In this document: in pieces, positions 386 through 21,740 of the stretch | How positions within the stretch are numbered: position 1 is the first letter of the stretch | Layout of the letters: each line of letters opens with the position of its first letter | Virus record (IMG/VR): IMGVR_UViG_3300028423_000597 | Location: 1-23,238 of that record | DNA: 23,238 nt | Origin: a virus | Strand: one strand, 5' to 3' | Translations under genes and position numbers: made by a program | Notes under the pieces: generated by a model | The model's input: only the letters and a program-made list of their open reading frames with translations | Told to the model about the DNA's origin: nothing | Databases searched by the model: none

Positions 386-3300
386 GTGAATCTCCTCAAT
401 AATCCCATGATTTGAAGGTTGGGCGAGCGGTCGAAGCTGAACGACACGCTGTCCACAATGTAGTAGTCACTGACCTCTTCACCGTCGTCATAGGTTGTGT
501 AGTCTAACAATAGGGCGTCCTCTGGCTCCCAGTCCAACTGGGCTGCTGCGGTTGGTTTACGGCTCCCGGAATGGGCAATGGCGTCCTTGACAATGTAACT
601 GGCCTCGGTATAAGCGGCCTCCTCGTCCAGGCTGGGAACATGATGGCTCTGGAACATCAGGCCGTATCTGCGCGCAGAGTTGTCGTCAATGTAGTCACCC
701 GTCTCATATCCCTCCACTCGTATGTGTGTGGGGATACGGTCGGTCTCGGCTGTCTGGTCGCGGTAGATGGACACATGTGCCCCACCGGCCGGGTAGTTGG
801 CATCCCCGCTCTGATGGTCTGTGATGGTGCCCAACCACTGGGAGAAATTGCTCAGCGTGGCCGTAGTATACCGGAGCGCCATGTTGGAGAACCTCAGCAT
901 AGGTTGACCGGTATCGGTATCCAATGTACCCACGAACCTCACCCTTCTATCCCTGATAGCCGAGTCAAGCCCGTTGATGGCGTTCTGCCTGCTGTCCAAC
1001 GTGATGGCGTCTGTCCACTCCCACAACTCAGGCTGTGTAACGTCCACAACTGGTGTGTAAGAGCCATAGCTCTGGACCGCGATGTAGCCGGGTTGTGTGA
1101 ACGTCTCGGCGTACCCATCCGCATCCACGCCGAATATCTCCTCAGTGTGCAGCGTGCCCAGCTTACACCCGTTGCTGTACACGGTGATAAACTTCTCCCT
1201 ACCAACGAACCGCACGGTGTTGCCGATGTTATCACCCGGAATCTCGATGCGGTCCACCATTATCCAGCCCGATGTGTTGGTGCTCGTCTGTTGAAGCTCA
1301 AGGACGGGAGAGGTGATACCCGCCCTGAGCCCAAGGTTGACAGCCAGCGCACTGAGGCTTGACACGTCACCCGTTGTCGCTGAGCCGAACTTGGTGTTAG
1401 CCCTGCAAAGCAATGTTAGGAAATCACCCTGAGACTCCGGCACTGTCGGTAGCGTCACTGTGATGTCGAAATCTTTCTGATACACATCATCACTGAAGAC
1501 ATCTGTAAGCCAGTATGGAATGGACGCCTGGGTGGACACACTGGCCTCGTTGATGGAGTACTCTGTGTCGAAGTCAAGGACGCCAGCCTTAGCCGCAATC
1601 TCCTCGATAGCCCATTCCAGGGTTTTGTCCGTCTCATCATCATAAGCCCACACACCCTCCACCATGATGACGGGGTTCCAGTGCTGGCGTATGATAGTAC
1701 CCTTGCCATGCGCGGTCTCCGTCTCATGAGGGCTGGCTCTACCAGGGAGATAGAAGCCGGGGTAAATCTTGCCATCCGGCATCTTGTCATCGTAGCTGTC
1801 ACCAGACGCGTAGTGCCAGGAGCCCATCTTAGACCAGTCGTCAGAATCAACATCCCAGAGATAAAGCGCGTCTATCCCGGACTCGCCCTTGGCGCACACC
1901 ATCTCCGTCCACCGGGCGAACCCGTAATGCCACTTGATGGTGTCGTCCTGCAGGTCCTGGTTGTCCCCGCGAATGAACATGGGGAGCATATTACTCCCAT
2001 AGGTACCATCCCAGATATTGCTCCCAGCGTTCTCATAACCCCAAGGCATCTGGCGCGTAGCCTCATCAGGCCCCCAGTTCCCCTGACCTGTGTTATAGCT
2101 GGCCGCGTAGTTGGTGGGACTGACCTTAGGTCTTCGCCAGCGAGAGTGTGATGGGGTGTAGTCGTCCAGGTCATCGTACTCCCACTGGTCGCCGAAGTAC
2201 TCAGTGTTGGCATAATCATCCGTGGTCGAGGGATTGAAGGTCTCGCCGCCGAAATGGAAAGGCGGAATCTCCGAGTTAGCTTTCTGGGCCCAGGCACTCC
2301 CGTTCCAGGTATACCCGTTGGTGAAGTCTTGCCAGTCGGAGAACGGGTCCTTGAGCAGTGTCTGCGTGCCAGACGCCACTTCTACCGTGAACAGGTCGGG
2401 GTTTCTGATGAGCCAGTCCCTGTCGCTCCTACAGGAGCCAAGCTGCGACTCAGGGACGCTGATGGTACAGATAACGCCTACCTTACCCTTATCTGTGGCG
2501 TTCCATGCCTCAGAATCCAAGTACACCATGGGGTCGTCAAAGGGCCAGGTCTCGGAAATCTTGTCCGTGGCGGCCGAGCGGCTGCTTCCGGATGCGGAGA
2601 ACTGATACATCCTGGCCTCAACCAGGTTGCCACGCCTGACAAGTTCCACCTCGTATTTCTTACCCTTGGTGACTGTGACGTTTATGTCCTCGTATGCCCA
2701 CGGAATCCAAGCAGAGTCATCCTCATCACCGCGCCGGATGACGAGCCAGAACTTACCACCGATAAGGTCAGGGATAGCCGCGATGAGGTTGTACTGCGAG
2801 TCAGCGCCGCCCACACAGCCGACGCAACCGATACCCGTTCCGAGCCTGGCCCACCCATCAGCCCTTGCAATACGCCAGGTGGAAGCAGTCTTGCCTGTAC
2901 TACCGGCTCCATTCCATTCTGAAGAGCTGGAAGAAGCCACCTCACTGACCTCTGTCACCTGGAACTTCTCATCCTGACCGCTGTATGCCCTGTATATCCA
3001 AGCCCAGGTGATGGTGCCATCTGTGTTTGTCACCACGATGATGTAGCGACAGTAATCCTCGCCATCGCAGTAGTAGTCGGAGAAGTCCTCTCCGGCAACC
3101 CCAAAAGTCGTCATGCCGTCAACAGCAAAGTTCTCATCGTACGTACCGCCAGTGCCTGTCATCTCGCTGAACGTGCTGTCCACATAACCAGATGAGAGCA
3201 CACTGGTGGAGCCTGCGTAGTCATCAGAGATGGAGAATCTAGTCCTAACGTGGAAGTTGCGGGTATCGGGGGGTTTGGTACACAGGTGAATACCAGGCTT

Positions 3301-4893
3301 GTTGGGAGTGTCAAAGATGAGGGTGTCGTCGGACTCGGTTATCTCGTCCTCGTCGACGCCGCCAGTAAGTTCTTCATCATCATCGGACTGGACCTCAATC
3401 TGGCCAGAGCTGATAGAGTACAGGTGGGAAAGCACATCGCAGTCGTCGTAGTGCTTGGTCTCCGACATGATCTGCCAGTTCTGGTCGCTCACCCAATCGT
3501 AGAGTAATCGCATCACAATCTCGCGGCTGGTGATGCTGAAAACCCTGTTGCCAAGCTCGTAGGAGCCAGGGACCTGGTCAATGCCCTCTACAGCGATGGG
3601 TATGCTAGGCATTGAAGCCGCAGACGCGTCATCGTACCCGGCGCCCCTCCACAGCCACATGCCAGGGGAGACAGCCAGCTCGCCATCAGCATTGGTCCAC
3701 CGGCCCAGATAATCGCTATCCTCAGTCACCCTGTTGTATGTGCCATCGCCAGCTGCCAACCTGGTTGACCCCTTGGCGGCAGCGCCGGCCCCGGACTGGT
3801 TGTAAGTCCATGAAAACACATCATCGCTGGCGTCAATCTCAAGAGCCGACTGCTCCGAGTTCATAAGCCAGGTGCGCCGACCCCTCATAACCGTGGCGCC
3901 GCGAGGATAGTAAACATAGTCGCCATACACAAGCAGCTTACCGCACATGTTTGTGCTAGTCAGATAGCAGTATCGGTCAAACGACCAATGAACCCCATCC
4001 TTGGTGCGCGTTACAAAGTCAAAGGCTTGTGGGTGTTCTCCCGTGCTTCCCGGACGGCTGATGCGCCCCGTGGCCCACAACACCTCATCACCATTTGAGT
4101 CAGTGATGTTAGCTATGCTGCCGATACGCATGAACGAGTTGCTGCCCAGATCGTCTATCCTAGATATATGCCTCGGCGTCGACCACATGCCCTGCTTGTA
4201 GCGCACCACCACCGGCTGGCCGTAGGTCCTCTCGTTGAGAATGATGATGTCCTCGTTGTTAAGCCTCTCCGCGTCAAACCACTGCAGGCTAGAGATGTTG
4301 TAATCAGCATCAACGGGGAACGTGTGAGGGCAATCTGTGATATCTCCGCCGAACTCCACGCGGTGCAAGGACACGTACTTGTATGTACCCTCTTCGTGGA
4401 GCTTGGCCATGTAGATGATGCTTGACCCACCCTTGGCGCATGCTAGAGCTACATGGTCAGTGTTGCAGGTATAAGCACTGGACTTGAATGTGTAATCATT
4501 CCCGCTGGCGTGGGTGAACAGAATGTCGCCGTTGTAGGCGTAATAGGTATACAGTTCTCTGCAACTCACACGGTGAACACCATCCGTGGTCCTGGTGAGG
4601 ACGTAAGAGCTGCCCTGCCAGTTGGAACTAGATGACATATCTCGCGCGTGATGGATGGTGACATTGGAGGCATCGCACCACGCACGCGTCATGTACTTGT
4701 CGTAGTCATCCTCATCGTACGGGTGCTGAGGAATATCGCTGCCATCATCAGCGTCGGGGAAGTCTGTATTGTAGGCCGATGTTTCCCAGTCCTGGTCCAG
4801 GCGCAGCATGACGTCCCGGATAACCAGGTCGGTTACCGGGTAGCGATTGAGGCTAGCCTGCTGGCTCTCAATGCCAGCATCAATAGTTCTCAT
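382..4893 (-). CDS. Large tail hub/tip protein
   Basis: 1503 residues from ATG 4893, coupled by ATGA to the gene before and, at its end, to the gene after. Residues ~1-480 are Tyr/Trp/Asp-rich with possible propeller-like strands ('GSSYVLTRTTDGVHRVSCRE', 'NNEDIIILNERTYGQPVVVR'). An acidic linker lies at ~500-525. Residues ~540-770 resemble a laminin-G/concanavalin-like beta sandwich ('NFHVRTRFSISDDYAGSTSV', 'KKYEVELVRRGNLVEARMYQ'). The last ~370 residues ('ITLDSRQNAINGLDSAIRDR', 'PTHIRVEGYETGDYIDD', ending 'SFSFDRSPNLQIMGLLRRFT') look like a baseplate-hub (gp27-type) fold. It probably forms the tail tip that contacts the host surface. The order, putative binding domains before the hub-like part, is unusual. 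Confidence 0.65.
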   Translation of the reverse strand: MRTIDAGIESQQASLNRYPVTDLVIRDVMLRLDQDWETSAYNTDFPDADDGSDIPQHPYDEDDYDKYMTRAWCDASNVTIHHARDMSSSSNWQGSSYVLTRTTDGVHRVSCRELYTYYAYNGDILFTHASGNDYTFKSSAYTCNTDHVALACAKGGSSIIYMAKLHEEGTYKYVSLHRVEFGGDITDCPHTFPVDADYNISSLQWFDAERLNNEDIIILNERTYGQPVVVRYKQGMWSTPRHISRIDDLGSNSFMRIGSIANITDSNGDEVLWATGRISRPGSTGEHPQAFDFVTRTKDGVHWSFDRYCYLTSTNMCGKLLVYGDYVYYPRGATVMRGRRTWLMNSEQSALEIDASDDVFSWTYNQSGAGAAAKGSTRLAAGDGTYNRVTEDSDYLGRWTNADGELAVSPGMWLWRGAGYDDASAASMPSIPIAVEGIDQVPGSYELGNRVFSITSREIVMRLLYDWVSDQNWQIMSETKHYDDCDVLSHLYSISSGQIEVQSDDDEELTGGVDEDEITESDDTLIFDTPNKPGIHLCTKPPDTRNFHVRTRFSISDDYAGSTSVLSSGYVDSTFSEMTGTGGTYDENFAVDGMTTFGVAGEDFSDYYCDGEDYCRYIIVVTNTDGTITWAWIYRAYSGQDEKFQVTEVSEVASSSSSEWNGAGSTGKTASTWRIARADGWARLGTGIGCVGCVGGADSQYNLIAAIPDLIGGKFWLVIRRGDEDDSAWIPWAYEDINVTVTKGKKYEVELVRRGNLVEARMYQFSASGSSRSAATDKISETWPFDDPMVYLDSEAWNATDKGKVGVICTISVPESQLGSCRSDRDWLIRNPDLFTVEVASGTQTLLKDPFSDWQDFTNGYTWNGSAWAQKANSEIPPFHFGGETFNPSTTDDYANTEYFGDQWEYDDLDDYTPSHSRWRRPKVSPTNYAASYNTGQGNWGPDEATRQMPWGYENAGSNIWDGTYGSNMLPMFIRGDNQDLQDDTIKWHYGFARWTEMVCAKGESGIDALYLWDVDSDDWSKMGSWHYASGDSYDDKMPDGKIYPGFYLPGRASPHETETAHGKGTIIRQHWNPVIMVEGVWAYDDETDKTLEWAIEEIAAKAGVLDFDTEYSINEASVSTQASIPYWLTDVFSDDVYQKDFDITVTLPTVPESQGDFLTLLCRANTKFGSATTGDVSSLSALAVNLGLRAGITSPVLELQQTSTNTSGWIMVDRIEIPGDNIGNTVRFVGREKFITVYSNGCKLGTLHTEEIFGVDADGYAETFTQPGYIAVQSYGSYTPVVDVTQPELWEWTDAITLDSRQNAINGLDSAIRDRRVRFVGTLDTDTGQPMLRFSNMALRYTTATLSNFSQWLGTITDHQSGDANYPAGGAHVSIYRDQTAETDRIPTHIRVEGYETGDYIDDNSARRYGLMFQSHHVPSLDEEAAYTEASYIVKDAIAHSGSRKPTAAAQLDWEPEDALLLDYTTYDDGEEVSDYYIVDSVSFSFDRSPNLQIMGLLRRFT

Positions 4894-5309
4894 TCAGCCT
4901 CCGACTTCGCTAGCCTGATAGTCACCCTGAACCAGGCGCAGGAGCCCTCAATCTTGGGGGACATAGGCTCCTCAATCATATCCCCCATAAGATAGACGTC
5001 GTGTGTGTTCCCGTAGTGGTCGGTTAGTGTGAGTAGGTTGGATGGCGTGCCATCAGGGTCGTTGAGTTGGTAGAGCGTACGTAAGTCGCTCATGTCGCCA
5101 TAATTACCTGTCTCACTGTCCGATACCATAAGGCTGTAGGTCCATTGGCGGAGTACTGGCCCAACCTGCATGTCGACTTTACCAGTGACAGTGAGTTGCA
5201 TGTTCTGAATCTTGTGCCACAGCGGCCGGTATCCGCCATCAGGGAACAACACCCGGAAGTAGTACTGGTTGCTGCTGGAATCCTCTAGGATGATGTACTC
5301 GTTGCTCAT
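4890..5309 (-). CDS. Distal-tail-like protein
   Basis: 139 residues from ATG 5309, coupled to the tape measure gene by an ATGA overlap. It is a compact beta protein: 'NEYIILEDSSSNQYYFRVLF', 'HKIQNMQLTVTGKVDMQVGP', 'LRQWTYSLMVSD', then 'LLTLTDHYGNTHDVYLMGDM' and 'EGSCAWFRVTIRLAKSEAE'. A short beta-barrel protein directly after the tape measure gene usually forms the hexameric ring at the tail end (Dit or a shortened form); 'L.D..G..H.VYL.G' followed by a C-terminal strand suits this tube-related fold. It is smaller than typical 200-300-residue Dit proteins, so it probably has only the N-terminal ring domain. Its stop overlaps the next gene's ATG. Confidence 0.6.
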   Translation of the reverse strand: MSNEYIILEDSSSNQYYFRVLFPDGGYRPLWHKIQNMQLTVTGKVDMQVGPVLRQWTYSLMVSDSETGNYGDMSDLRTLYQLNDPDGTPSNLLTLTDHYGNTHDVYLMGDMIEEPMSPKIEGSCAWFRVTIRLAKSEAE

Positions 5310-8300
5310 CTAGCCCCACCTCTGAACGCGTGGTCCGCACCGCTGTGCTGGTCCAGGAAGCCTTGGTACACGGCGCCGAGTTCCGGGTCCAGCTCCTTCA
5401 GAACCTCCATAAGGGCCTGGGACATTAACTGCTGCCACTCGGAGATAAGCACGGCCTGCTCCCTCTGGACGTTTCTCATCTCCTCCCTAAGCGCCGCCAT
5501 CTTCTTGGCGTGTCCTGCCGCCTCAGCAGCTGCGTCCTTGGCGATTTCCAGGTTCTTGCGGGCGTACTCAAGGTCCTCTTCCCGCTTCTCTTCCTGAATC
5601 TCCCAGTTATCTTTGAATCCCTGTTCCTGCTCCTCAATCTGCTGTAAGCGGAATTGATGAGCCTCTTCAGCTCTTTGCACCTGCATATCGTGCTGGCGCT
5701 GCTGAAGGTCAGCCAGCTCCTCTGCGTGAGCCTTGCGCTTCTCAAGCTGTTCCTCTTCCCGCTCGAACGCCTGTTCCTGCCACTTCCACATCTGCTCCTG
5801 GCGCTCTTTACCAGTCTCAAACCGCCCTCTCTGCTCACCATATCGGATGACGGCCCGTTCCTGCTGAGTCTGCAATCGCTCGCGCTGACGGCCGGTGGCG
5901 AACCGGATGTTCTCCTCGTAGTCCTCCATCTGCCAGCCGAATTCTCTGGCCGACCTGCCCTGCTGGAACGCCCAGTCCTCACGCTGCCAACCCTGTCTCA
6001 CACCAAATTGGTTCTGTCGTATGCCCAGATTCTCAGCCTGCCATTGGAACTGCTGCTGCTGCCACATCTGGTTGACATCCATGCGGCGCTGCTGGAGACC
6101 AAACTGTTGCTGTTGGTAGCCAAAGTTCATAGCCTCCTGCTGGTACATCATCGGGAACCGGCCGGTGTACTGATAACCAGGAGTGACCGGACTCTCGCCA
6201 CCCAGCGCTGTCACGTATTGCAGCTGCCTCGCCAGTGCGTTTGGCCCCTCGCCAGCTTCTTCCTGCGCCAGCCTCTCTTCCCGGAGAGCAAGCCGCCTTT
6301 GTGTGAACCCGGCCTGAGCCATGGAGTGCCTGAGACCTTCCGCAGACATGGCATCCTGCAGACCCCAAGCTGTGTCTTCACCCCACCCACCAAACTCGGC
6401 GCCACTCCACGTGGTGCCACCCACAAAGTCTCCCGTGGCCTTGCCGGCCATCATCCTGGCGTTGGCCTGCTGATAGCCAGCCTGGAACTGCGGCATAGTC
6501 ATGCCGTATCCTACAGGGGCCGCGGTGCCGATACGGAGACCAGCGGGGCCGCGGGTTACCATCTGGGGCGTGATGGACATCCCCAGCGCCTGTCCTAACT
6601 GCTGCATCTGAGGGAGCCTGCCCTGACCGCTGATGGCCTGGCTCATTTGGTAATACTGTTGTTGTGTTAGCTCCTCAGGGAGCGCTTGCTGCAAGGCCTG
6701 GGCAGGTAGCCCAAACTTCTGGGCCGCAGTGCTTACCATCTGCGCCCCTCTGCGCGCAGAGACAGCCTGCTGGAGAATCCGCTGTTGGTCTTCTGGTGTA
6801 GCAGATTCTAACGCCCGCTCGACACCAGGGCCTACCTCGGGAGTCATAACCCCTTGGGCCATAAGGGTGCCGCGCGTGCCCTCAAGGATACCAGCCACAG
6901 TCTTGGCATACCGAATTTGCTTGCCCGAATATTCGGGTTCCTGGAAGTAGAAGCTGGGTCCGCCGAACTCCCCTGGTACATCAGTCTGCCTTGGCATAGA
7001 ACCAGCGTACTGAAGGATGTCCTCGCCAGCCGTGCCATACTGTCTCATCCAGGAGAACTTGCCAACCTGCGCTTCAGCTCTGGCTTTCTCAAACGCGGAG
7101 GCCCCTTCTGGTGTAAAGCGCTTGACGAGCTCTTCTGTACCCTCGATGCCCATACCCAGGCCCTGAGCCATCTTAGCGTACTGAGCAGGGTCAACCCCAA
7201 GGGCTGTGGCCCTCGTCATCCATTCCGGCGGCGCCTGACCAAGCTGCTCGGGTGTCATCCCCTCAAGCGCCTGTGTGTAGGTTGCAAATCCCCCCAGGGT
7301 TTTTAGGATGCTCCCCTCATCCATCCCGGACCAAATAGTTCCCTCTTGCCCGTGAAGATTTCTCGCTGCAAAGTTGAGGGAGGCCATTCTATTTTGTGCA
7401 GACATGGCGCTGAGTCTCGTGCCGCGAAGTTCTTCCCCAAGTTGTTGTTGGGATATCCCCACGTCAGCAGACGCTTGCAGATTTGTTGCAAGTTGGTTAG
7501 AGAGGCCCTGTATCCCCCTGTCACGATATGCCGCGCCCAGCTCCCTTGTTAGACCGCCACCAATAAGGTTTCCAGCAGCAGCCCTAAAAGCGCCTGTTGT
7601 TTCATAGCCAGCCCAGCCGAGACCTCCGCCACCTCGAGTAGCGGCAAAGGCGTTTTCGGCTGTTTTTGGGCCATAAGACCTGAGGTAGTTGTACCCACCA
7701 TACAAACCAGCAGCACCAGCTACCGCTGCTCCTACTGGGCCTGCAGCAGCGGTAGCGCCAACGGCATTGAGACCAATCATAGAGACCAAGCCCGCACCGG
7801 CGGCCGGGCCAGCCACACCAAGCAGGCCTGGCATGGCAGAACCAGCGCCAACCAATCCACCATAGGCCCGATAAGCTGACCGGCCAGCATTAATCTGAGC
7901 TTGCTGCATTTGAGCCCTGGCCCTGATGACACCGCCGGCTACGCCCTCGGGCAACCCCCCGCCAGCATATCCACCAATGGCCTGAGTCATACCCCAGCCA
8001 GCCATCTCAGCCTCTGCAGCGGCTGGCATGTACTTCTTGAAGGCCGGGGCACCCAGCATACCCCATGCACGGCGCATCTGCATGGGAGCCCACCCGACGG
8101 CAAGGCGCTTGATACCCCGAGCAGCTTGCGTCATAAAGCCGCCGCCACCCTCATCACCGCCACCAAGCATTGCCCTAAGCTCTTGTATTTCGGCTTGCCC
8201 ATAGGCCTTTTTCAGGCGCTCGATCTTGCCGCCCTTTTTCCACTGTACAGCTTGCCTCCAGGGGCCCTCTGCAGCACCGCTCCACATAGAGGCTTTCTCG

Positions 8301-11300
8301 GGATACTTGAGGCCCCTGTCGATGGCCTGAGCCATCCTACCGAGCTTCTTGGTTAGCCTGAGCTCGCCCTTGGTAAAATCTCTAGTCCCGTCAATAGCTG
8401 GCTTGACAGCTTTAGCCCAATCATCAAACAGCTTGCTCACCTTGTTTACCGAGTCAACGAACTTGCCTTCCGGTACGCCGCTAAAGTCTGGCCCGCCACC
8501 ACCACCCTCAATACGCTCCCCCAGCTCCATAACAGCCCTAATCAAGGAGTCTTCCGGGCTGGGTTGTTCTTCTGGCTCGGCTGCGGCTGATGGTGCGCCG
8601 GACGGCGGTTCCTCTGGGGGTTTCTGACCACCAGCATCACCCATAGCGGGTAACCCCCCAGCCTTGGAGATACCAGCGCCAAACGAACTCTTTCGCCTAG
8701 CTCGCATACGCTCTGCAGTGGATTGAATACCCGTGGTGGCCCTGGCCTGCCTGGACGCAGAGGCCTTTCCTGGCGGTCTGGTTGCTGCAGAGAAAGGTGG
8801 TTGAGCAATCTTGTTGGGAGCCTCTTTGATTAGTTCTTCAGCAGCCTTCATCTGCTCGCCGTAGCGTGCTGGCATGCCGCCCACCTGGCTCCACTCGGTA
8901 GGTAGCTGCCCGGTTTCTTGCCATCGTTGTACCTGTGTCTGCTGGGCAACGTGCTGCTGAACGGCGCCACGCGTGGCCTCCATAGCTTCCTCGCCCAGGT
9001 CAATGGAGACCTTACGCCCACCTGTTACAATCTCATTACCAATTTTCTCTGCTAGATTGACCATATCTGGCGTGGCATCAGTCCACGAAGTGATACCCTT
9101 GCTCTCAAACATGTTGCGCAGCCTGCGTATCTTGGTAACCGTTTCACCCCTGGGCGCCCAGATCTCTGCGCTCTCGGCTCCGGTCAATGCTGAATAGAGC
9201 CTGAGCTGGTGGCCGTACTCCTCACGCAACTCCCGGTCTGTGCCCAGACTGGTCGCAGTCTTGATGTCAATTACTTTCTTAGAAGCCGGGTTCCAAACGT
9301 CAACTCGACCAGACACCTGCTGGCCGGCAAACTTACCACTGACTCTCTTCTCGGTCTCGATGTCACCGCCAAGCTCAAACATGCTCTCCATCTGCTTGTG
9401 TATCAGGCTTCCGGCCTCACCCTCAATGGACCCACCACCAGAGACGCCTTTGCCAAGCCCTCGGCGCCTAGACCCTCTGGCTAGGGCATTCACCAATAGG
9501 CGTGCTTTGTCGCCGCCAACAGCTGATGGGCTAATCGTGCCCTGCCACTTACCCGGACCCTTACTCCTACCAGATAGGAATGGCGCCAGGCCGTAGCCAA
9601 GCTCTCGAGCAGCATCTACCTTTGCCGATAGGTAGCCCATAGGTGTGGTGTTGGCCTGCCCGGCCCTCAACTTGCTACCCACAAGGCGGCGAGCCTTAAA
9701 CTCACGCCCTTGAGTTAATGCCTGCTGCCAAATCTTGAGCTGTTCGGACTCTGGGATATCCTGGGGCAGCTCTAGCCGGAATGGCTCACCCGCTCTCTCT
9801 GCTCTCGCTCGCTCCCTGCGTAGCTGGTGAGCAAATAACGCTGCACCTAGTGGGGACTTCACGCGCTCTGCAAAGGAGCCCAACACCTCACTCGGCGGCG
9901 TCTCTTGCCAGAGCGCAGCCCTTTCATCTCCCGGTTTCGCCCCACGCCAACGCCTGACAAACTCCTCGGCGCTCTTCACCTTGCCAGGCCCGGCTGTAAG
10001 CTCTGCTATCTGCCTGGGCGTCAGAGCACCCTTCTCAGTGCCGCCTGCCAACTCCTCAAACAGGCTGATGAAGCTCTGGCTGTACCCGGAACCAAGTGTC
10101 CTCTGGTATTGCTCAACGTCGATACCCTCAACCTGTTTAAGGGCATCAGCGCTCCAGCCTGTCTTTGTGGCCGTCGCCATTAGGTCCATCGTGCGCTTGA
10201 GGGACTTGGGAAGAGGGGTCTTTCCCTGTGTGCGCCCATGGACAGTCCTGAACAGCTCCTCGCCAGCCTTACCCCTACCAATCTTCCTGGACGCTGACCA
10301 GGCGTCCTCAAGCAGGTTGTAGTAGCGGCCGATATACTTGCCGTGACCGCGGTAGTAGTCCTCGACCATAGCTTGCCTGACATCACCCTGGCCAAGGGTG
10401 AATAGCGTACTGGGGTCTACGTCTAGAGGGATTTCTTCTCCCCTGACATTACTAGGCCTTCCCAACTCCTCGTGGGCCCTGATAGCCCCCTCTTGTATCT
10501 GCTCCTCTGTGAATATCTGGGCGCCAGTCAGGTCAGTCTTGGTCCACTCGCCATCCTTATAGGCTACTTGCTCGCCAGCTATTGCATAGATGGGGTCACC
10601 GTCGGCGTCACGCCCAAGGAACTGACCAGCCTGCGGGTTGAGGACCATTCTTTGACCCAGGTCCTCCAGATTCAGCCATCCCTGCTCCCTTGCATACTGG
10701 GGACTGGTTATCTGCATTGCCCCACGTGTGTATTCCTCACCAGGTGTAGGCTGACCAAAAACAACACCCTTGGGTGACCACTCGCCAGAGCGATACTGCT
10801 CCAACAATTCCTCTCTGTGCGGATGCTCCTGAATACCCAGGGCCCTTACGAGTTCCTGTTCCGGCATGACGATACGGTTGGACGGCAGGGCCGGGTCCAT
10901 AAGCAGCCGACCCGCCCTACTTCTCTCCGTCCATGCCCTCATACCCATCTGGAAGAAGTTGCGCCCAGTGGCTAGGCCGCTCACAGCCTCAGCAGCGCCT
11001 TTCACGGCACCACCTTGTTTCTCGGTGCCGTACATCTCTATGGCGCGAGAGAACGCGCGACCAACCTGTGATGCCTCTTCAAAGATGTAATCACCTGTGG
11101 TTGTGAAGTGCTTGACATGGCTAGGGGCACCGATAAGGCGGTCGCCAATGCGGATGTTCTTTCCACCATACCTCTCGGCGGCGGACTCGATAATCATTCT
11201 GGACATCACGCCGGGCTGCAGCTCTCCCGGCTCGACACCCTGAGTCTCAGCCAGGGCCTTGGCCCTTGTGCGAGCGGAGGCCATTATGGCCTCCTGACCC

Positions 11301-12970
11301 CTTGCTGTCAGGTCGACAACATCGCTCGGGGCTTCTGCACGGCCAGCATTGTACTGGGCCGTGTTTATCATACTGGCATACGCCATACGCCTGGGGAGTG
11401 CTTCCTTCTGAAGCTGGGCATGCAGCTTGGGCATAGTGCGCTCAAGCGCCCGCATTTCCTTGGCCGGCACATTGTGCCTGCGAATGGGCCACTCCATACT
11501 CAACTGTGTGAACCAGTCACCAGCCACCATCTCCATCGGCTTGGTGATGACGTCTACACGCCCCTCACGAGCCTCTCTGGGGGTCGTGACGCGCTCAATA
11601 GGAAGGTCCCCATACATACCCTTACCCTCTTCAGCGGTGCCGAAAGGAGCCCTTAACTGGCTCGTGGGGATGTCGTGGAGAACGGCCCTTCTGGTTGTCT
11701 TGATTTCTGGGTAAACCTTCTCGCGGTAACGCTGATGCAGTTGATAGCCCACATCGCGCCAGGTACTGGTCTCTGGTAGGCCCATCTCCTGTAGAGCGGC
11801 CGCTCGCTCCTCAGGGTGAGCCTGCCAGTAGGCGTAAGACTGTGCACCCGGCTCCTTCAGGGCTCCTACGCCATGTTTCTCAAACCCTGGAATTGTGACC
11901 TGCTGCCCAGATGCAAGTTGGTGCTTGAACAAGCCTGAACGCGCCATAAGCTGCGCGTGAGCGGGGTCCATCCTTTGCCTGAACCCAAGGCGGACCCACT
12001 GGCCTTCTACATCTTGTCCACCCACCCGCCTTGTGCTTTCCCTGCCAGTCTCCTCAAGCTCCTTTTGGGATAGAGGCGTGGCACCCCTAAACTCTACTGA
12101 TGTGGCATACCGTCCCAAACCCAGGTCAAGCGGCTGCGCCCCCTCAAACGGAACGATGTCCTGACCAGGCTTCCACCTGGTACCGCGCTTTGTAAAGGAT
12201 GGCTCTTTACCCTTGGGGAACCAATACAGCTTCTCTTTCTTGAGCTCGGCTTCTGAAACATAGTCCTTCGGGGCCTGAATCTGGCCCTCCGGGGTGATGT
12301 CCCTGCTCGTGAACACCATAGGAAGGTTGACACCCTCTGGAACCCGCGTGGCCTTTTCACCAGTCTTCATGGGGGCGAGGTGTGTGAGCTTCCTCCTGCC
12401 CCTGGTGACCTCACCCGTTCTCGGGTCTACCACATCCCTTGGGGACTGGTACAGATCAGGGTACTCGTAAGATGATGTCCACGGTTTCTTGGCGTACTTG
12501 GCAATCTTCAACCGACCCTCGAGTGTACTTGGGTCCTTGCTGACCTTCATCTCACCTTGCGGGGAGGGGACACCCATGAATGACTGCTCATACACCCAGG
12601 TGGGCCACTGGCGTGTGGATTCCGGCGTTGAGACATAGCCTTCTTCCCACTGCGAGGGATGGCCTTCCTCGCCCTCCTTGAAGGGCTTTGAGTGGAGCAC
12701 GCGCATTTGCTTACCGGTACCGGTTCGCTGCCAGTTGATAGTCGAGGATGTACCGGGCTCTCTACCAACATCTTCACCCTCCAGCCTTGGCGCCTTGCCA
12801 CCATAAGCAGCATACCGAGTCTCAAGCGCCTGACGCACCTCTGCTGGGGACACCTGGGTGACATCAGTTCCCAGGATTTCCGCCGCCTGACCCATCAGCT
12901 CTCTGGGCATGTAACCGGTAACAGTGTACTCCCGAAGCAGTTCTCGGAGGGTGTCGAAATCACTTGGCAT
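5306..12970 (-). CDS. Giant tape measure protein with nuclease and polymerase-like domains
   Basis: 2554 residues from ATG 12970 (MPSDFDTLRELL...), overlapping the chaperone stop by 11 nt. A TTG start 18 codons upstream has no ribosome binding site. Layout: residues ~1-680 charged and helical; ~690-800 polymerase-like motifs with D788-A-D-G-D792; ~1180-1280 a PD-(D/E)XK nuclease core; ~1340-1450 a Pro/Gly/Ala/Glu disordered linker; ~1700-1762 a Gly/Ala hydrophobic stretch able to span a membrane; ~2280-2355 Gln-rich repeats; ~2330-2515 a long charged coiled coil. The C-terminal half is typical of tape measure proteins, which set tail length and are ejected with DNA. The N-terminal enzyme-like half is not. 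Its stop overlaps the next start (ATGA). Confidence 0.85.
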   Translation of the reverse strand: MPSDFDTLRELLREYTVTGYMPRELMGQAAEILGTDVTQVSPAEVRQALETRYAAYGGKAPRLEGEDVGREPGTSSTINWQRTGTGKQMRVLHSKPFKEGEEGHPSQWEEGYVSTPESTRQWPTWVYEQSFMGVPSPQGEMKVSKDPSTLEGRLKIAKYAKKPWTSSYEYPDLYQSPRDVVDPRTGEVTRGRRKLTHLAPMKTGEKATRVPEGVNLPMVFTSRDITPEGQIQAPKDYVSEAELKKEKLYWFPKGKEPSFTKRGTRWKPGQDIVPFEGAQPLDLGLGRYATSVEFRGATPLSQKELEETGRESTRRVGGQDVEGQWVRLGFRQRMDPAHAQLMARSGLFKHQLASGQQVTIPGFEKHGVGALKEPGAQSYAYWQAHPEERAAALQEMGLPETSTWRDVGYQLHQRYREKVYPEIKTTRRAVLHDIPTSQLRAPFGTAEEGKGMYGDLPIERVTTPREAREGRVDVITKPMEMVAGDWFTQLSMEWPIRRHNVPAKEMRALERTMPKLHAQLQKEALPRRMAYASMINTAQYNAGRAEAPSDVVDLTARGQEAIMASARTRAKALAETQGVEPGELQPGVMSRMIIESAAERYGGKNIRIGDRLIGAPSHVKHFTTTGDYIFEEASQVGRAFSRAIEMYGTEKQGGAVKGAAEAVSGLATGRNFFQMGMRAWTERSRAGRLLMDPALPSNRIVMPEQELVRALGIQEHPHREELLEQYRSGEWSPKGVVFGQPTPGEEYTRGAMQITSPQYAREQGWLNLEDLGQRMVLNPQAGQFLGRDADGDPIYAIAGEQVAYKDGEWTKTDLTGAQIFTEEQIQEGAIRAHEELGRPSNVRGEEIPLDVDPSTLFTLGQGDVRQAMVEDYYRGHGKYIGRYYNLLEDAWSASRKIGRGKAGEELFRTVHGRTQGKTPLPKSLKRTMDLMATATKTGWSADALKQVEGIDVEQYQRTLGSGYSQSFISLFEELAGGTEKGALTPRQIAELTAGPGKVKSAEEFVRRWRGAKPGDERAALWQETPPSEVLGSFAERVKSPLGAALFAHQLRRERARAERAGEPFRLELPQDIPESEQLKIWQQALTQGREFKARRLVGSKLRAGQANTTPMGYLSAKVDAARELGYGLAPFLSGRSKGPGKWQGTISPSAVGGDKARLLVNALARGSRRRGLGKGVSGGGSIEGEAGSLIHKQMESMFELGGDIETEKRVSGKFAGQQVSGRVDVWNPASKKVIDIKTATSLGTDRELREEYGHQLRLYSALTGAESAEIWAPRGETVTKIRRLRNMFESKGITSWTDATPDMVNLAEKIGNEIVTGGRKVSIDLGEEAMEATRGAVQQHVAQQTQVQRWQETGQLPTEWSQVGGMPARYGEQMKAAEELIKEAPNKIAQPPFSAATRPPGKASASRQARATTGIQSTAERMRARRKSSFGAGISKAGGLPAMGDAGGQKPPEEPPSGAPSAAAEPEEQPSPEDSLIRAVMELGERIEGGGGGPDFSGVPEGKFVDSVNKVSKLFDDWAKAVKPAIDGTRDFTKGELRLTKKLGRMAQAIDRGLKYPEKASMWSGAAEGPWRQAVQWKKGGKIERLKKAYGQAEIQELRAMLGGGDEGGGGFMTQAARGIKRLAVGWAPMQMRRAWGMLGAPAFKKYMPAAAEAEMAGWGMTQAIGGYAGGGLPEGVAGGVIRARAQMQQAQINAGRSAYRAYGGLVGAGSAMPGLLGVAGPAAGAGLVSMIGLNAVGATAAAGPVGAAVAGAAGLYGGYNYLRSYGPKTAENAFAATRGGGGLGWAGYETTGAFRAAAGNLIGGGLTRELGAAYRDRGIQGLSNQLATNLQASADVGISQQQLGEELRGTRLSAMSAQNRMASLNFAARNLHGQEGTIWSGMDEGSILKTLGGFATYTQALEGMTPEQLGQAPPEWMTRATALGVDPAQYAKMAQGLGMGIEGTEELVKRFTPEGASAFEKARAEAQVGKFSWMRQYGTAGEDILQYAGSMPRQTDVPGEFGGPSFYFQEPEYSGKQIRYAKTVAGILEGTRGTLMAQGVMTPEVGPGVERALESATPEDQQRILQQAVSARRGAQMVSTAAQKFGLPAQALQQALPEELTQQQYYQMSQAISGQGRLPQMQQLGQALGMSITPQMVTRGPAGLRIGTAAPVGYGMTMPQFQAGYQQANARMMAGKATGDFVGGTTWSGAEFGGWGEDTAWGLQDAMSAEGLRHSMAQAGFTQRRLALREERLAQEEAGEGPNALARQLQYVTALGGESPVTPGYQYTGRFPMMYQQEAMNFGYQQQQFGLQQRRMDVNQMWQQQQFQWQAENLGIRQNQFGVRQGWQREDWAFQQGRSAREFGWQMEDYEENIRFATGRQRERLQTQQERAVIRYGEQRGRFETGKERQEQMWKWQEQAFEREEEQLEKRKAHAEELADLQQRQHDMQVQRAEEAHQFRLQQIEEQEQGFKDNWEIQEEKREEDLEYARKNLEIAKDAAAEAAGHAKKMAALREEMRNVQREQAVLISEWQQLMSQALMEVLKELDPELGAVYQGFLDQHSGADHAFRGGAR
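5426..5983 (-). other. C-terminal charged coiled coil of the tape measure protein
   Basis: Residues ~2330-2515 are an unbroken Glu/Arg/Gln/Lys-rich helix ('ERQEQMWKWQEQAFEREEEQ', 'LQQRQHDMQVQRAEEAHQFR') with no helix breakers over long stretches. It follows a Gln-rich part with recurring 'QWQ', 'FGVRQ' and 'FGWQ' units. This is the rod-like portion expected inside the tail tube. Confidence 0.7.
7685..7873 (-). other. Hydrophobic Gly/Ala segment of the tape measure protein
   Basis: Residues ~1700-1762 consist almost only of Gly, Ala, Val, Leu, Met and Pro ('LVGAGSAMPGLLGVAGPAAG', then 'GLVSMIGLNAVGATAAAGPV'). Tape measure proteins often carry such segments, thought to insert into the host inner membrane during DNA ejection. 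About two to three membrane passes are possible. This is an inference from composition. Confidence 0.6.
9131..9433 (-). other. PD-(D/E)XK nuclease domain inside the tape measure protein
   Basis: Residues ~1180-1280. In order: 'GSLIHKQME' (H1191); 'DIETEKRVSG' (E1205 or E1207); 'SGRVDVW' (D1224); 'KKVIDIKTA' (D1235-x-K1237); and 'EYGHQLRLYSALTG' (Q1255-x3-Y1259). This is the full motif set of the RecB/Cas4-like branch of PD-(D/E)XK nucleases, with metal-binding acidic residues, the catalytic lysine and the QxxxY motif all present. It should fold as a metal-dependent DNase, acting on DNA ends or single strands if it behaves like relatives. No cysteines of a Cas4-type iron-sulphur cluster are seen. 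Confidence 0.75.
10571..10903 (-). other. Candidate RNA polymerase double-psi beta-barrel motifs
   Basis: Residues ~690-800 of the tape measure protein. Three segments appear in order: 'NRIVMPEQELVRALGI' (R699 to L707), 'GVVFGQPTPG' (Q740-P-T) and 'FLGRDADGDPIYAI' (D788, D790, D792). They resemble the beta-prime segments 'GRSVI..GPEL', 'NRAPT' and 'NADFDGD..AV'. The 48-residue gap from QPT to DxDGD is close to that in QDE-1. DxDGD aspartates hold the catalytic magnesium in this superfamily. An alternative is a DxDxD-type calcium loop. Motif level only. Confidence 0.4.
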
Positions 12971-13322
12971 TTTGGATGATATCCCGGTAACTTTGAAGCT
13001 GGTCGTCGAAGATATCTCTGGCAATCTCGCAGGCCGCGAACTCGAGATTCATGATGTAGGGCTGGTTTGAGATACCCCCAGACCACCAGAGCGTGTTGTG
13101 ACGCTTGCACAGCAGCCAGATGCGATACGATTCAGGCATCTCCGCATCGGGCTCCATGGGCATTAATCCACTTTTGCGCAACGCCTTCTTTACCTGGCTG
13201 TCAGCGTTTCTGAAGAAACTTGCTTCCAGGTAGTTGATAACCGCTTCCTCGAGCTTGTCGAGGTGCTCGGAAAGCGGGTTGTCTATTCCCCCTCTGTCAT
13301 CAGACCGAAAACATCCCACTGG
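12960..13322 (-). CDS. Tail assembly chaperone, -1 frame extension
   Basis: This frame is open from 13385 to the stop at 12960 but has no convincing start or ribosome binding site of its own. It is best read as the C-terminal 120 residues of a -1 frameshift product, entered at the heptamer 13328-13322, after codon 144 of the upstream frame. The domain is helical, 'NPLSEHLDKLEEAVINYLEA' and 'MPESYRIWLLCKRHNTLWWS' followed by 'GGISNQPYIMNLEFAACEIA'. The 'WL...H..LWWSGG..QPY' pattern recurs, as far as I recall, in frameshift-expressed tail chaperones (gpGT-like T domain). The stop overlaps the tape measure start by 11 nt. Confidence 0.65.
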   Translation of the reverse strand, partial: PVGCFRSDDRGGIDNPLSEHLDKLEEAVINYLEASFFRNADSQVKKALRKSGLMPMEPDAEMPESYRIWLLCKRHNTLWWSGGISNQPYIMNLEFAACEIARDIFDDQLQSYRDIIQNAK

Positions 13323-13764: not shown

Positions 13765-13995
13765 CTACTTACATCCGCAGTCTTTGCGGACCCAGAGCTT
13801 ATCCTCGCGCTCAGCTCTGGCGAGCGCTTTCTTTCCTTCCTCCGACATTTCTCTCTGCACGCAGAGACTTCCGTATGTTCCCACAGTGCGCATCAGCTGC
13901 CCCAGACGCTTCAGAATACTGTTCTTCTTCAGTCCGTCCGGGGCAGCCTCAGCCACCGTGTCGTATGTCAGCTCTAAGAGCTGGTCTACGTTCAT
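13765..13995 (-). CDS. Small helical protein between tube and chaperone genes
   Basis: 76 residues from ATG 13995, coupled to the tube gene by an ATGA overlap; the upstream in-frame extension lies inside the tube gene and is rejected. The sequence is helical and charged ('MNVDQLLELTYDTVAEAAPD', 'KKNSILKRLGQLMRTVGTYG', 'EEGKKALARAEREDKLWVRK') and ends DCGCK, so two cysteines sit at the C-terminus. It may be a tail-assembly accessory protein. No recognised family. Confidence 0.6.
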   Translation of the reverse strand: MNVDQLLELTYDTVAEAAPDGLKKNSILKRLGQLMRTVGTYGSLCVQREMSEEGKKALARAEREDKLWVRKDCGCK

Positions 13996-15173
13996 GGCAG
14001 GGCGTAGTCTGCCTTGGAGTTCTGCAGGACTAGGTACAAGCCCGTCTCGCCCGACACAGCCTCGACAGTGCCTGTAATCTGCATGACCACCGGCCGCCGG
14101 GGCGTTACTCGAATGGGCTGTGCCATCCACGCCACATTGTTGTTGTCCGCGTTGGACACAATGCGGAGTTTGTACTTCTCAGATGAATCTCCCGCGGCCC
14201 CGATAGCAACCTGCGATGCAAGCATCACGTCCAGGTCACCCTTGTAGACCGTGCATGCGGCCGTCTGGTCCGACCCTGACGAGACATCCACCGAGCTGCC
14301 CGTGAAGGTCGTGACGTACAGGTCGTAGTTCTCGATGAGAATCGTAGCGGTCACGGTGACGTCACGCGACAACAGCGGGAAGTCCTTGGGGTCAAGGGAC
14401 CCCATGATAATGCTCTGCTGCGGAGGTAGAACGTTGTTGTTGATAGTGAACGTGACGTTGGTGACGTCGTGCTCAGTACCCTCTACCTTGAAGTGCCCCT
14501 CACAGCTCGGAATGGCAAACGTGGTGAAGTCGTCGTACGATGCCGACCAGCCAGGATTGACGTCGAACTCCTCAGAGGCCTGCAAGCGACGCCCCACAAG
14601 GTCTAGGTCAATCGTCACCGGCGCGCCACTGGCAGCCGTGAGCGTAAACGAACCGATACGAGAGTCTTGGAATATCTCCCCAACCTCTTCTGCGGCCGTC
14701 GCGTTAGGGAGTAGGTGCCGAATCGTCAGCCACGGCGCGAAGAACTCATCATTGTCGCTGAAGTAAAAGATGTGTGAGTTAATGCCAGAGGTGTCGCCGC
14801 TAGAGCCAGAGCCACCGCAGATGCCAAGGTTTTCGGCCTTGATATCAGTCACGGTAGAGCACTCGCCCGTGGCGGCCAAGAGCAGCCATCCAAGTCGGTT
14901 GTCCAACCTGGCAATCAGGCTAGCCGTCCCCTGTCCCCACACACCTGTTGCGAACGTGCCGAAGGTCATAGCCTTGCCACCCATCTCTGGCGGCAGCGAG
15001 TCCTGCATCTTAGCCATGCCCATCGACATATCAAGCAGAGGGTAGTAGTAGATGTTAGTCGTCTCTGCGTTATCGTACCCGTCCGCCATCTTTGCGTAAT
15101 CAGTGCCCCCGGACCCTTGCTGGATACCAACTCCAAACAAAGAGTCCTGCGGCATTTGCATCCCTGATGCCAT
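13992..15173 (-). CDS. Major tail tube protein
   Basis: 393 residues from ATG 15173, with TAGGAGG about 6 nt upstream. The protein is nearly all beta with few charged clusters: 'VWGQGTASLIARLDNRLGWL', 'IGSFTLTAASGAPVTIDLDL', 'TEHDVTNVTFTINNNVLPPQ', 'RDVTVTATILIENYDLYVTT'. The C-terminal part ('PRRPVVMQITGTVEAVSGET') may be an added beta domain. Abundant Asp/Asn/Gly/Thr strands, size and position before the assembly chaperones and tape measure gene support the tail tube, a hexameric ring stacked around the tape measure. Its stop overlaps the next start (ATGA). The length is at the upper end for tube proteins. Confidence 0.75.
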   Translation of the reverse strand: MASGMQMPQDSLFGVGIQQGSGGTDYAKMADGYDNAETTNIYYYPLLDMSMGMAKMQDSLPPEMGGKAMTFGTFATGVWGQGTASLIARLDNRLGWLLLAATGECSTVTDIKAENLGICGGSGSSGDTSGINSHIFYFSDNDEFFAPWLTIRHLLPNATAAEEVGEIFQDSRIGSFTLTAASGAPVTIDLDLVGRRLQASEEFDVNPGWSASYDDFTTFAIPSCEGHFKVEGTEHDVTNVTFTINNNVLPPQQSIIMGSLDPKDFPLLSRDVTVTATILIENYDLYVTTFTGSSVDVSSGSDQTAACTVYKGDLDVMLASQVAIGAAGDSSEKYKLRIVSNADNNNVAWMAQPIRVTPRRPVVMQITGTVEAVSGETGLYLVLQNSKADYALP

Positions 15174-15754: not shown

Positions 15755-16444
15755 CTACCTCCTGGCTGGCGAGACTGTCCTCAGTAGCTCGTTATACCAC
15801 CTCATGTGGTCCCAAGCTGCTGCCTGACGCGGGTTGTGCATCGGCGTACCTGCATCCACGCTTATCTTCCACTCGTTGATGTCATTGGCCAGCATGCTGC
15901 CTGGCTGCCAACAATAAGCGATGGCAAGGTGAATCAGAGCCGACTCGGCCCACCTGGGCACGTAAATCGTCTCGTGCTCGTAGGTGATGTCCTCGTCAGT
16001 GCTGCCTACCGAGTACTCTATCTCTGGGTAATAAGCCCAGTAGTAGAGCGTGAGGTAGTCCACATCGTAATCCACCTCTCTCTCCAGAATCATGCTGTCA
16101 TCCCAAATCCAGTACTGCGGGATGTCAGAGTCTGGGTCTCGATAGTCACCCTCTGAGAACGTTACCTTGCTCCACCAATACTCGTTATAGGAATCGTAGA
16201 TACCCTTGACGTCGAAGAAGTCGTCAGGGAGCAAGGCCGACCGCTCACCCGTGTCTATAGTCAGGGACGCAGATTGCTGCCTTGGTGTATGGTGCACAAA
16301 TACATCCTGTGCCCAGTTCCACCCATCAATACGGAGCGGTAGGGAGAAGCGCCTAGCCTGCGCCTCTCCCGACGCGTCCTCCTGCAAGGCATCGTCTGCG
16401 AACCTATTCAGCTTAGACTGGAGGTCAGTGAACGTCTTGGTCAT
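15755..16444 (-). CDS. Head-tail connector (adaptor) protein
   Basis: 229 residues from ATG 16444, sharing one base with the capsid stop (TAATG), so probably translationally coupled. The start 'KTFTDLQSKLNRFADDALQE' is a helix, followed by acidic, Tyr/Trp-rich beta sequence ('YWWSKVTFSEGDYRDPDSDI', 'DVDYLTLYYWAYYPEIEYSV'), and then helices 'PRWAESALIHLAIAYCWQPG' and 'AAAWDHMRWYNELLRTVSP'. This helical-beta-helical layout with a late 'A...LA.AY' helix is typical of ring-forming adaptors that dock on the portal after packaging. The position directly after the capsid gene agrees. No nuclease or ATPase motif is visible. Confidence 0.7.
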   Translation of the reverse strand: MTKTFTDLQSKLNRFADDALQEDASGEAQARRFSLPLRIDGWNWAQDVFVHHTPRQQSASLTIDTGERSALLPDDFFDVKGIYDSYNEYWWSKVTFSEGDYRDPDSDIPQYWIWDDSMILEREVDYDVDYLTLYYWAYYPEIEYSVGSTDEDITYEHETIYVPRWAESALIHLAIAYCWQPGSMLANDINEWKISVDAGTPMHNPRQAAAWDHMRWYNELLRTVSPARR

Positions 16445-17919
16445 TACGTATAGCCAATGCTACCGCGGTTGCCGAACTTGGCGGCGGTGTAGAAGACCTC
16501 GTAGATGTCGAGGTTCCACGGGTTAACCTCACCGTACCAGTTAGCCGTCACGCGCTCAATGGACGGGAAGTCCACGTTGTTGTCCACAGGGCGATTGTAC
16601 TCAACGAACTCACCGGTGGGCTGCATGCGCTTGACGAACTGCACCATCTCCCGCGCGCCAACCACGATGACCGGATGCACATGCTGTGCCTTGGTCACCA
16701 CTGCATATGCTAGGCTGGTGTCGCTGGAGCCAGCGAGGTAGCTAAGCTGGAACTGGTCCACGTACTGCTCGGTGATGGGGTTGCGGACCGTAATGCGGTT
16801 GCTGCTCGCATCAACGCTGTAGACCTCGGCCAGGTACGTCTTACCGTCTAGCGGGTCACATCCACCTGTGATGCCGTATTCACTGGTCTGGTTGGTGTGA
16901 ATGCTAACCATGTCACCCTTGGAGAAGTCGCCGCTCGAGAAAGCGGAGCACTGGATGTAGTGGGTGGTGTCATCGGCATCCTGGCCCATGTACCAGACGC
17001 TGTCGACAGCCGAGCTGTCCGGGTCGGGGGCGCCATCACCAAACTCGATGGGGCTCGTGACCCGCACCTGCTTGGAGATGGTACCGGCGTTCCAGAGCAC
17101 CATCTTGTAGCCAGTGTCCTGGACCACCATGTTGCGGTACTCAATACGCCCACCGTTGATGATGCGCTCGTCTCGGAGCTGCCGCAGGTCAATCATATAC
17201 TCCTGCTCGTCCGAGTTCCAGATACCCCAATACGTCGGGGTCGTCACCATCACCAACACAGAGTCCCTGAAGTCGGAGCCTGGCACCGGCTGGGCATAGT
17301 TGCCGTACTGCTTCAACGTGTCCTCAACACGGAAGGACATGCGCAGGGCAACGTCCTCCAGGAGAGTTACGTCAAACAGGCCGGTGTCGTCGGTCGGGAG
17401 GTCGGAGAAGTCATTGGAGCCGCTGGCGAAGGCGTCGCCATTGTGCATGAACTCATGGTCAACGTTGTCCAGGATGCCGTCCCTGGCCACCTTCTCCTGC
17501 TGCCCAACGATGTTATCGGCCAGTTGGTCTCGCAACACAGCACTGATGAACGCCGCGCTGTCATTGCCATAGCGCGTAACCATCTGGTCGCGTCGGTCGT
17601 ACTGAACCTTGGCGCCCCAGCGGTCTCGCGCCCGGACCTTGCGCTGACGGGTGTCGATGTAGAGCGGTCCCATCATGCGCTGATACCGGCCGATAGTGTT
17701 GTGGTTAACGTGCGCCGGGACAATCTCTGCCCCAACGTACCAGTACTGGTCGAATCCCACACCTTCTGGCATGGTCATCGAGTTTCCAATTAGGGGGGTG
17801 AAGAACACATCGGTCTCGTGAAACCGCGTGTCGATGACCGCAGAACGCTCGTCCCACTTGTCCTGGGTCCACTCCCTAAATGGATTGAAATCCAAATAGG
17901 CTTCTACTTCGTTTGCCAT
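16444..17919 (-). CDS. Major capsid protein
   Basis: 491 residues from ATG 17919, preceded by GGAGG and lying just after the scaffold gene. The N-terminal ~150 residues ('DTRFHETDVFFTPLIGNSMT', then a basic Arg-rich loop and a long helix 'DSAAFISAVLRDQLADNIVG') fit an N-arm, E-loop and spine helix of the HK97 fold. Residues ~295-395 look like an inserted beta domain ('GDFSKGDMVSIHT', 'GKTYLAEVYSVDASSNRITV'). The chain then returns to 'VHPVIVVGAREMVQFVKRMQ' and a C-terminal beta segment ('IYEVFYTAAKFGNRGSIGYT'). Length is above the usual 300-400 residues, consistent with an insertion. Identification rests on size, domain rhythm and the order scaffold-capsid-connector; I cannot assign a subfamily. 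Confidence 0.8.
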   Translation of the reverse strand: MANEVEAYLDFNPFREWTQDKWDERSAVIDTRFHETDVFFTPLIGNSMTMPEGVGFDQYWYVGAEIVPAHVNHNTIGRYQRMMGPLYIDTRQRKVRARDRWGAKVQYDRRDQMVTRYGNDSAAFISAVLRDQLADNIVGQQEKVARDGILDNVDHEFMHNGDAFASGSNDFSDLPTDDTGLFDVTLLEDVALRMSFRVEDTLKQYGNYAQPVPGSDFRDSVLVMVTTPTYWGIWNSDEQEYMIDLRQLRDERIINGGRIEYRNMVVQDTGYKMVLWNAGTISKQVRVTSPIEFGDGAPDPDSSAVDSVWYMGQDADDTTHYIQCSAFSSGDFSKGDMVSIHTNQTSEYGITGGCDPLDGKTYLAEVYSVDASSNRITVRNPITEQYVDQFQLSYLAGSSDTSLAYAVVTKAQHVHPVIVVGAREMVQFVKRMQPTGEFVEYNRPVDNNVDFPSIERVTANWYGEVNPWNLDIYEVFYTAAKFGNRGSIGYT

Positions 17920-21533: not shown

Positions 21534-21740
21534 CTATGAAGCGCATACCCTCTCGGACAACGACACGCTACCAACCTCAGACTCGGATAACGATACCTCA
21601 CTGGACGACTGGGATAACACCAGGCAACCTACATAGATAGGGATGCCGTAGATTGGCCAGTACAGATACGTAGCCGGCCAGTAGTAGTAGCCGTTGTCAG
21701 GCCAGTAGTAATACGTCCCAGGCCAGTAACCAGCGCTCAT
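21534..21740 (-). CDS. Small Tyr-Trp-Pro repeat protein
   Basis: 68 residues. The ATG overlaps the previous gene's TGA by 4 nt (ATGA), so translation is probably coupled. The N-terminal half is a short repeat: YWP occurs at residues 5-7, 12-14, 20-22 and 27-29, spaced 7-8 residues apart and flanked by Gly, Tyr and Asp. The C-terminal part is a Ser/Glu run ('LSQSSSEVSLSESEVG') ending in VCAS. There is no signal peptide or obvious membrane span, although the YWP part is very aromatic. I recall similar aromatic-Pro repeats in small phage virion proteins, but know no function for them. By position it is a minor virion or assembly protein. The coding call rests on start coupling, the in-frame repeat and the tightly following gene. 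Confidence 0.6.
   Translation of the reverse strand: MSAGYWPGTYYYWPDNGYYYWPATYLYWPIYGIPIYVGCLVLSQSSSEVSLSESEVGSVSLSERVCAS

Follow-up and report, generated by a model that had tools for sequence, protein, structure and literature searches.

A tape measure protein with a predicted Cas4/RecB-like nuclease domain and a probable two-barrel RNA polymerase region in a metagenomic phage

The giant tape measure protein (TMP) of the phage studied here probably unites three parts, namely an N-terminal two-barrel RNA polymerase (RNAP) of about 1,060 residues, a PD-(D/E)XK nuclease and the tape, and it would be delivered through the tail, with the nuclease processing the entering DNA. The polymerase-like region and the tape measure lie in one chain, in the tail module of the phage. 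Several relatives carry other nucleases in their TMPs, which suggests that phages of this kind deliver, along with their DNA, machinery for reading genes and processing DNA. The TMP may serve as a loading platform for enzymes that are active during DNA entry.

The tape measure gene and its predicted nuclease domain

The window, that is, the whole stretch of DNA analysed, is a complete IMG/VR record (23,238 bases) whose minus strand carries a structural module (Table 1). The 2,572-aa open reading frame (ORF) at 5306-13024 was taken as the TMP because of its gene position and the Q-rich coiled C-terminus that is common to the long proteins of its relatives. The gene is flanked by the tail tube gene with two small overlapping ORFs, which precede it in the usual tail-chaperone position, and by distal tail genes; two tail-type genes lie beyond it, and an adaptor gene was also recognized (SU10_adaptor, E=5.4e-7). 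The tape portion includes a hydrophobic segment (aa ~1727-1775) and the Q-rich coiled coil. Scanned as a whole against Pfam and PHROGs, the 2,572-residue protein gave no match. Elsewhere in the window, a protein of 499 aa is encoded at 21737-23236 and contains a long internal repeat (LSAQP...LEDISDE...).

Table 1. Features of the window
Feature	Position	Strand	Details
TMP gene	5306..13024	minus	2,572 aa from TTG at 13024; cysteine-free
TMP gene, alternative start	ATG at 12970	minus	2,554 aa
Tape measure portion, aa ~1510-2572	5309..8497	minus	25-35% identity to the TMP C-termini of relatives
Conserved TMP C-terminal motif QREDxAFQ...WQMED...ATGRxR	5735..6007	minus	Alignment and scans; served to find relatives
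PD-(D/E)XK (RecB/Cas4-like) nuclease domain, predicted, aa ~1161-1345	8990..9544	minus	Motif and profile matches
Catalytic core H1209, E1223/E1225, D1242, D1253-x-K1255, Q1273-x3-Y1277	9194..9400	minus	69 residues
Two-barrel RNAP-like region, aa ~200-1060	9845..12427	minus	12-row alignment, AlphaFold model, Foldseek
DADGD, D806/D808/D810, RNAP DxDxD metal-binding motif	10595..10609	minus	Invariant in 12 aligned TMPs
K367, candidate DPBB-B lysine	11924..11926	minus	K in 11 of 12 aligned TMPs, R in one
Tail tube protein gene	13992-15173		Phage_tube_2, E=7.4e-14
Major-capsid-like protein	16444-17919		Related to a protein in an 82-kb contig; capsid role judged from size and place

The original prediction placed the complete set of RecB/Cas4 signature residues at 9131-9433. 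They are all there, in frame on the minus strand and in the order H, (E), D, (D/E)-x-K, Q-x3-Y; the residue numbers of that prediction were counted from the ATG, and the TTG-based numbers used here are 18 higher. That such a core is embedded in the TMP was borne out by profile searches, in which matches appear only with the excised domain as query. In PHROGs, the excised 149-aa domain matched phrog_1706 (CRISPR/Cas-associated, Cas4-like; E=1.9e-7) and phrog_1227 (E=2.4e-4), and the other scoring phrogs were mostly exonucleases. The Cas4 model TIGR00372 gave E=4.5e-5 with 23.3 bits, under its curated cut-off of 65, and the best Pfam match was weak (DUF3799, a PDDEXK domain, E=0.029). When the complete TMP sequence was shuffled 20,000 times, a regular expression written for the core matched in 4 cases; across the six frames of every locus compared, the expression matched only this TMP and one related TMP. 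Motif and profiles together support a predicted RecB/Cas4-like PD-(D/E)XK domain inside the TMP. The domain, like the rest of the protein, lacks cysteine; it therefore cannot bind a Cas4-type Fe-S cluster and is named Cas4/RecB-like, not Cas4.

Close homologues of the domain were not found in viral-contig and database searches. The nearest database matches, a rod-shaped virus nuclease and plasmid PD-(D/E)XK proteins, were not significant (E 0.4-9), and a PDB sequence search returned nothing useful. An AlphaFold model of the isolated domain reached a pLDDT of 37, a low confidence that is expected because the alignment had two rows. The aligned relatives G003 and G001 have no nuclease domain at the corresponding place. 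Three origins of the domain were considered and rejected. An intein or homing insertion was set aside since Pfam scans gave no such domain and cysteine is absent. Against an assembly chimera, the reading frame is unbroken, and GC content differs little between the nuclease stretch (0.547) and the gene (0.585), with the former slightly lower. Comparison gave no support for the idea that the domain was recently copied from the free-standing Cas4-like nuclease that these phages encode. Such free-standing phrog_1706 proteins, with cysteines, are encoded in the relatives G001 (L044, G001:53800-55000; E=1.5e-13) and G007 (L045, G007:34700-35767; E=3.3e-13).

The polymerase-like region and the related tape measure proteins

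Single-protein scans of viral contigs with the nuclease, the TMP and the tail tube found no relatives. They were reached via the capsid-like protein (G001, G003 and G004), and further TMPs via the conserved C-terminal motif. Thirteen distinct TMPs were compared, 12 of which entered the alignment of the polymerase region. Each of these twelve has exactly one DxDxD, a motif that in two-barrel (double-psi beta-barrel, DPBB) RNAPs belongs to DPBB-A; shuffles predict 0.04-0.53 per protein, and the motif aligns in all twelve. Just four columns of the alignment are invariant, the three aspartates of this motif and one glycine. K367, upstream of the motif and a candidate for the conserved lysine of DPBB-B, was placed there by alignment and position alone. 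The thirteenth TMP (L039:3917-10753) belongs to the same C-terminal family, lacks DxDxD and apparently has no polymerase. In L018 the chain is split, and a 1,587-aa ORF with DxDxD (3039-7799) precedes a separate tape ORF (7769-10711). One contig, L040 (LDXR01000011.1, from the NC10 bacterium CSP1-5 MAG), shows the same TMP ORF coordinates and motif as L027 from IMG/VR. It was binned to candidate division NC10, which is either a possible hint of the host or a misbinned phage contig.

The AlphaFold model built on the 12-row alignment has an overall pLDDT of 56 and pTM of 0.35, with a pLDDT of 70-90 over much of model residues 340-890. Searched with Foldseek against 350,542 PDB chains, the model gave a best 50 matches listed that are all RNA polymerases, mostly beta-prime chains, with a best E-value of 6.2e-5 and a probability near 1 for most of these 50. 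The global TM-scores to RNAPs are just 0.07-0.16, as expected when the domain arrangement is poorly modelled. In the viral structure library BFVD, viral RNA polymerases were among the best matches. At the sequence level, the region had no significant RNAP match in Pfam, PHROGs, NCBIfam or PDB sequences. Aligned by hhalign with the family of gp96, the TMP-fused RNAP of Thermus phage P23-45, it gave its best local match exactly on DxDxD (P=0.016); gp96 as a single sequence ranked first among 20 proteins tried, with a small lead. The model and the motif mark aa ~200-1060 as a probable two-barrel RNA polymerase.

Accessory domains were found in several related TMPs. Two of them carry an N-terminal DEDDh (DnaQ/PolC-like) exonuclease with complete catalytic residues, in G001 (L006:696-1400; RNase_T, E=5.8e-23) and in G003 (L013:11450-12304; RNase_T, E=1.3e-20), and among NCBIfam models the PolC exonuclease is nearest to the G001 domain. 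The TMP of L027/L040 begins with a PD-(D/E)XK-like segment (GRPDVVLW...SDVK...QPQMY) whose profile match is weak (E about 0.2); judged by its motif, it is probably the second PD-(D/E)XK nuclease of these TMPs. Between this segment and the nuclease of the window, BLASTP gave E=0.003 in one comparison and single-sequence hhalign was uninformative. After the polymerase region, the TMP of L019 has a zincin-like segment (aa ~1406-1456; peptidase M78-like match, E=0.0012) and that of L029 an HExxH motif (aa ~1235), both of which recall the metallopeptidase noted in P23-45 gp96. Rho_N matches were obtained in the TMPs of L018 (E=2.1e-6) and L025 (E=3e-4).

The position of the nuclease varies, after the polymerase region in the window and before it in the relatives. 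The design does not depend on a nuclease, since most related TMPs have none that is recognisable. Independent acquisition of these nucleases would be the simplest account. The original prediction treated the nuclease as an oddity of its TMP and missed both the RNAP-like region of the same polypeptide and the nucleases of related TMPs. In the light of these two findings, the domain makes more sense as an accessory to a TMP that carries a probable virion polymerase.

Cysteine is depleted throughout the family. Eleven of the thirteen TMPs (window, L013, L006, L018, L020, L027, L029, L031, L035, L037 and L039) have none, and these giant cysteine-free proteins are about 2,300-3,700 aa long. In the other two, every cysteine falls among the first 48 residues of the reading frame, possibly upstream of the true start. 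P23-45 gp96 likewise has zero cysteines in 5,002 residues. The thirteen proteins neighbouring the TMP in the window contain 33 in 4,448 residues (0.74%). The lack of cysteine extends to the nuclease and agrees with carriage of the whole chain in the tail.

Proposed function of the nuclease and alternative readings

We infer that the TMP enzymes are located in the virion, delivered into the cell and active. The TMP most likely lies extended inside the tail tube, and at infection its N-terminal enzymes would enter the cell with the DNA or ahead of it. In lambda, the TMP is located beside inner-membrane proteins during injection (PMC13190303). The polymerase would transcribe the first genes, by inference from P23-45 (PMC10770324), and meanwhile the nuclease would act on DNA at the entry site. 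As to its substrate, our guess is the terminus of the entering phage genome itself, which the nuclease might trim or resect for circularisation, recombination or polymerase loading.

It is also conceivable, although we doubt it, that the nuclease is an injected weapon that degrades the DNA of the host chromosome, of plasmids or of competing phages early in infection, with the TMP merely the delivery route, as in the polyvalent proteins of phages and conjugative elements. Injected multidomain proteins are on record in which polymerases, peptidases and nucleases are mixed with other effectors (PMC5512222), and the accessory domains differ among the relatives, which carry nucleases, zincin-like motifs (L019, L029) or Rho_N (L018, L025). 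However, the few TMP copies of a tail would be too few for bulk degradation unless the enzyme is highly processive. Moreover, the nuclease adjoins the polymerase, and the DEDDh fold in relatives is of the proofreading type.

A broader proposal, which we hold to be unlikely, is that the two-barrel polymerase is a constant of the TMP family, to which nucleases of unrelated fold (PD-(D/E)XK, DEDDh) have been added repeatedly to form a functional unit with it. Such a unit would either proofread or process its nucleic acid, possibly as a two-barrel DNA polymerase, or ready the incoming genome end. Its narrower form, in which the nuclease acts on the product or template of the polymerase (proofreading, transcript cleavage or R-loop removal) and both are one unit like PolD or PolC, appears rather improbable. 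In its favour, one of the two-barrel polymerases is the DNA polymerase PolD, whose partner is an exonuclease subunit (PMC4996933), the DEDDh domain of G001 has its nearest NCBIfam model in the PolC exonuclease, and unrelated nuclease folds accompany the same polymerase-like region. Against this, in many relatives that region occurs without a recognisable nuclease, P23-45 gp96 is not described as having one, and the place in the chain changes from the N-terminus to the stretch between polymerase and tape.

Slightly less credible again is a nuclease fold that has been retained but is catalytically dead, or that serves only to space the polymerase from the tape. The linker that holds the domain is indeed poorly conserved, and most relatives lack the domain, but its catalytic positions are all intact, whereas dead copies usually lose them. 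A motif arisen by chance, with no nuclease fold behind it, is very improbable, for although AlphaFold gave no confident fold and full-length scans were negative, two libraries returned matches at E=1.9e-7 and 4.5e-5, exonuclease families stand among the further matches and shuffling produced the core expression so rarely (4 of 20,000).

The reading that we prefer, a tail-delivered polymerase and nuclease with the latter processing the entering DNA, makes the role of the TMP N-terminus inside the cell testable by single-domain biochemistry.

Comparison with known systems

In the open-access literature found, one group alone has a virion RNAP fused to the TMP, namely P23-45 and its relatives. 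The titles and abstracts of that literature describe no nuclease domain in a polymerase-fused TMP; their coverage is incomplete, and this is a weak sign of novelty. To this group the present analysis adds divergent metagenomic phages in which fusion of polymerase and TMP seems to be general, and it shows predicted nucleases within that polypeptide as well.

The P23-45 protein gp96 carries DFDGD (PMC10770324). Like it, the TMP of the window is a giant protein whose N-terminal part holds a probable two-barrel RNAP with DxDxD; it is also free of cysteine and yields a profile alignment to gp96 that is centred on DxDxD. On the other hand, a nuclease is not mentioned for gp96 in PMC10770324, sequence similarity is not clear beyond the DxDxD region, and the phage lineages differ. 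The virion RNAP gp66 of the crAss-like phage phi14:2 (the 2,180-aa ORF of L023) is also a giant virion polymerase with DxDxD; it differs in that a TMP fusion is not known, and its profile similarity to the window region is weak.

The nuclease domain resembles Cas4 and Cas4-like phage exonucleases (phrog_1706, TIGR00372) in the order of its motifs, H, E, D, D-x-K and Q-x3-Y. Unlike Cas4, it has no Fe-S cysteines, scores under the curated cut-off and lies inside a TMP instead of being a separate enzyme. PolD, a two-barrel DNA polymerase with an exonuclease subunit, and PolC likewise combine a polymerase and an exonuclease in one machine. Both are cellular replicases with other nuclease folds or another arrangement, and DNA synthesis is not evidenced for the TMP of the window. 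Polyvalent proteins are similar in being injected multidomain proteins with polymerase, peptidase, nuclease and other domains, but their RNAPs are of the N4 type (PMC5512222), whereas the probable RNAP described here is of the two-barrel type and is part of a TMP.
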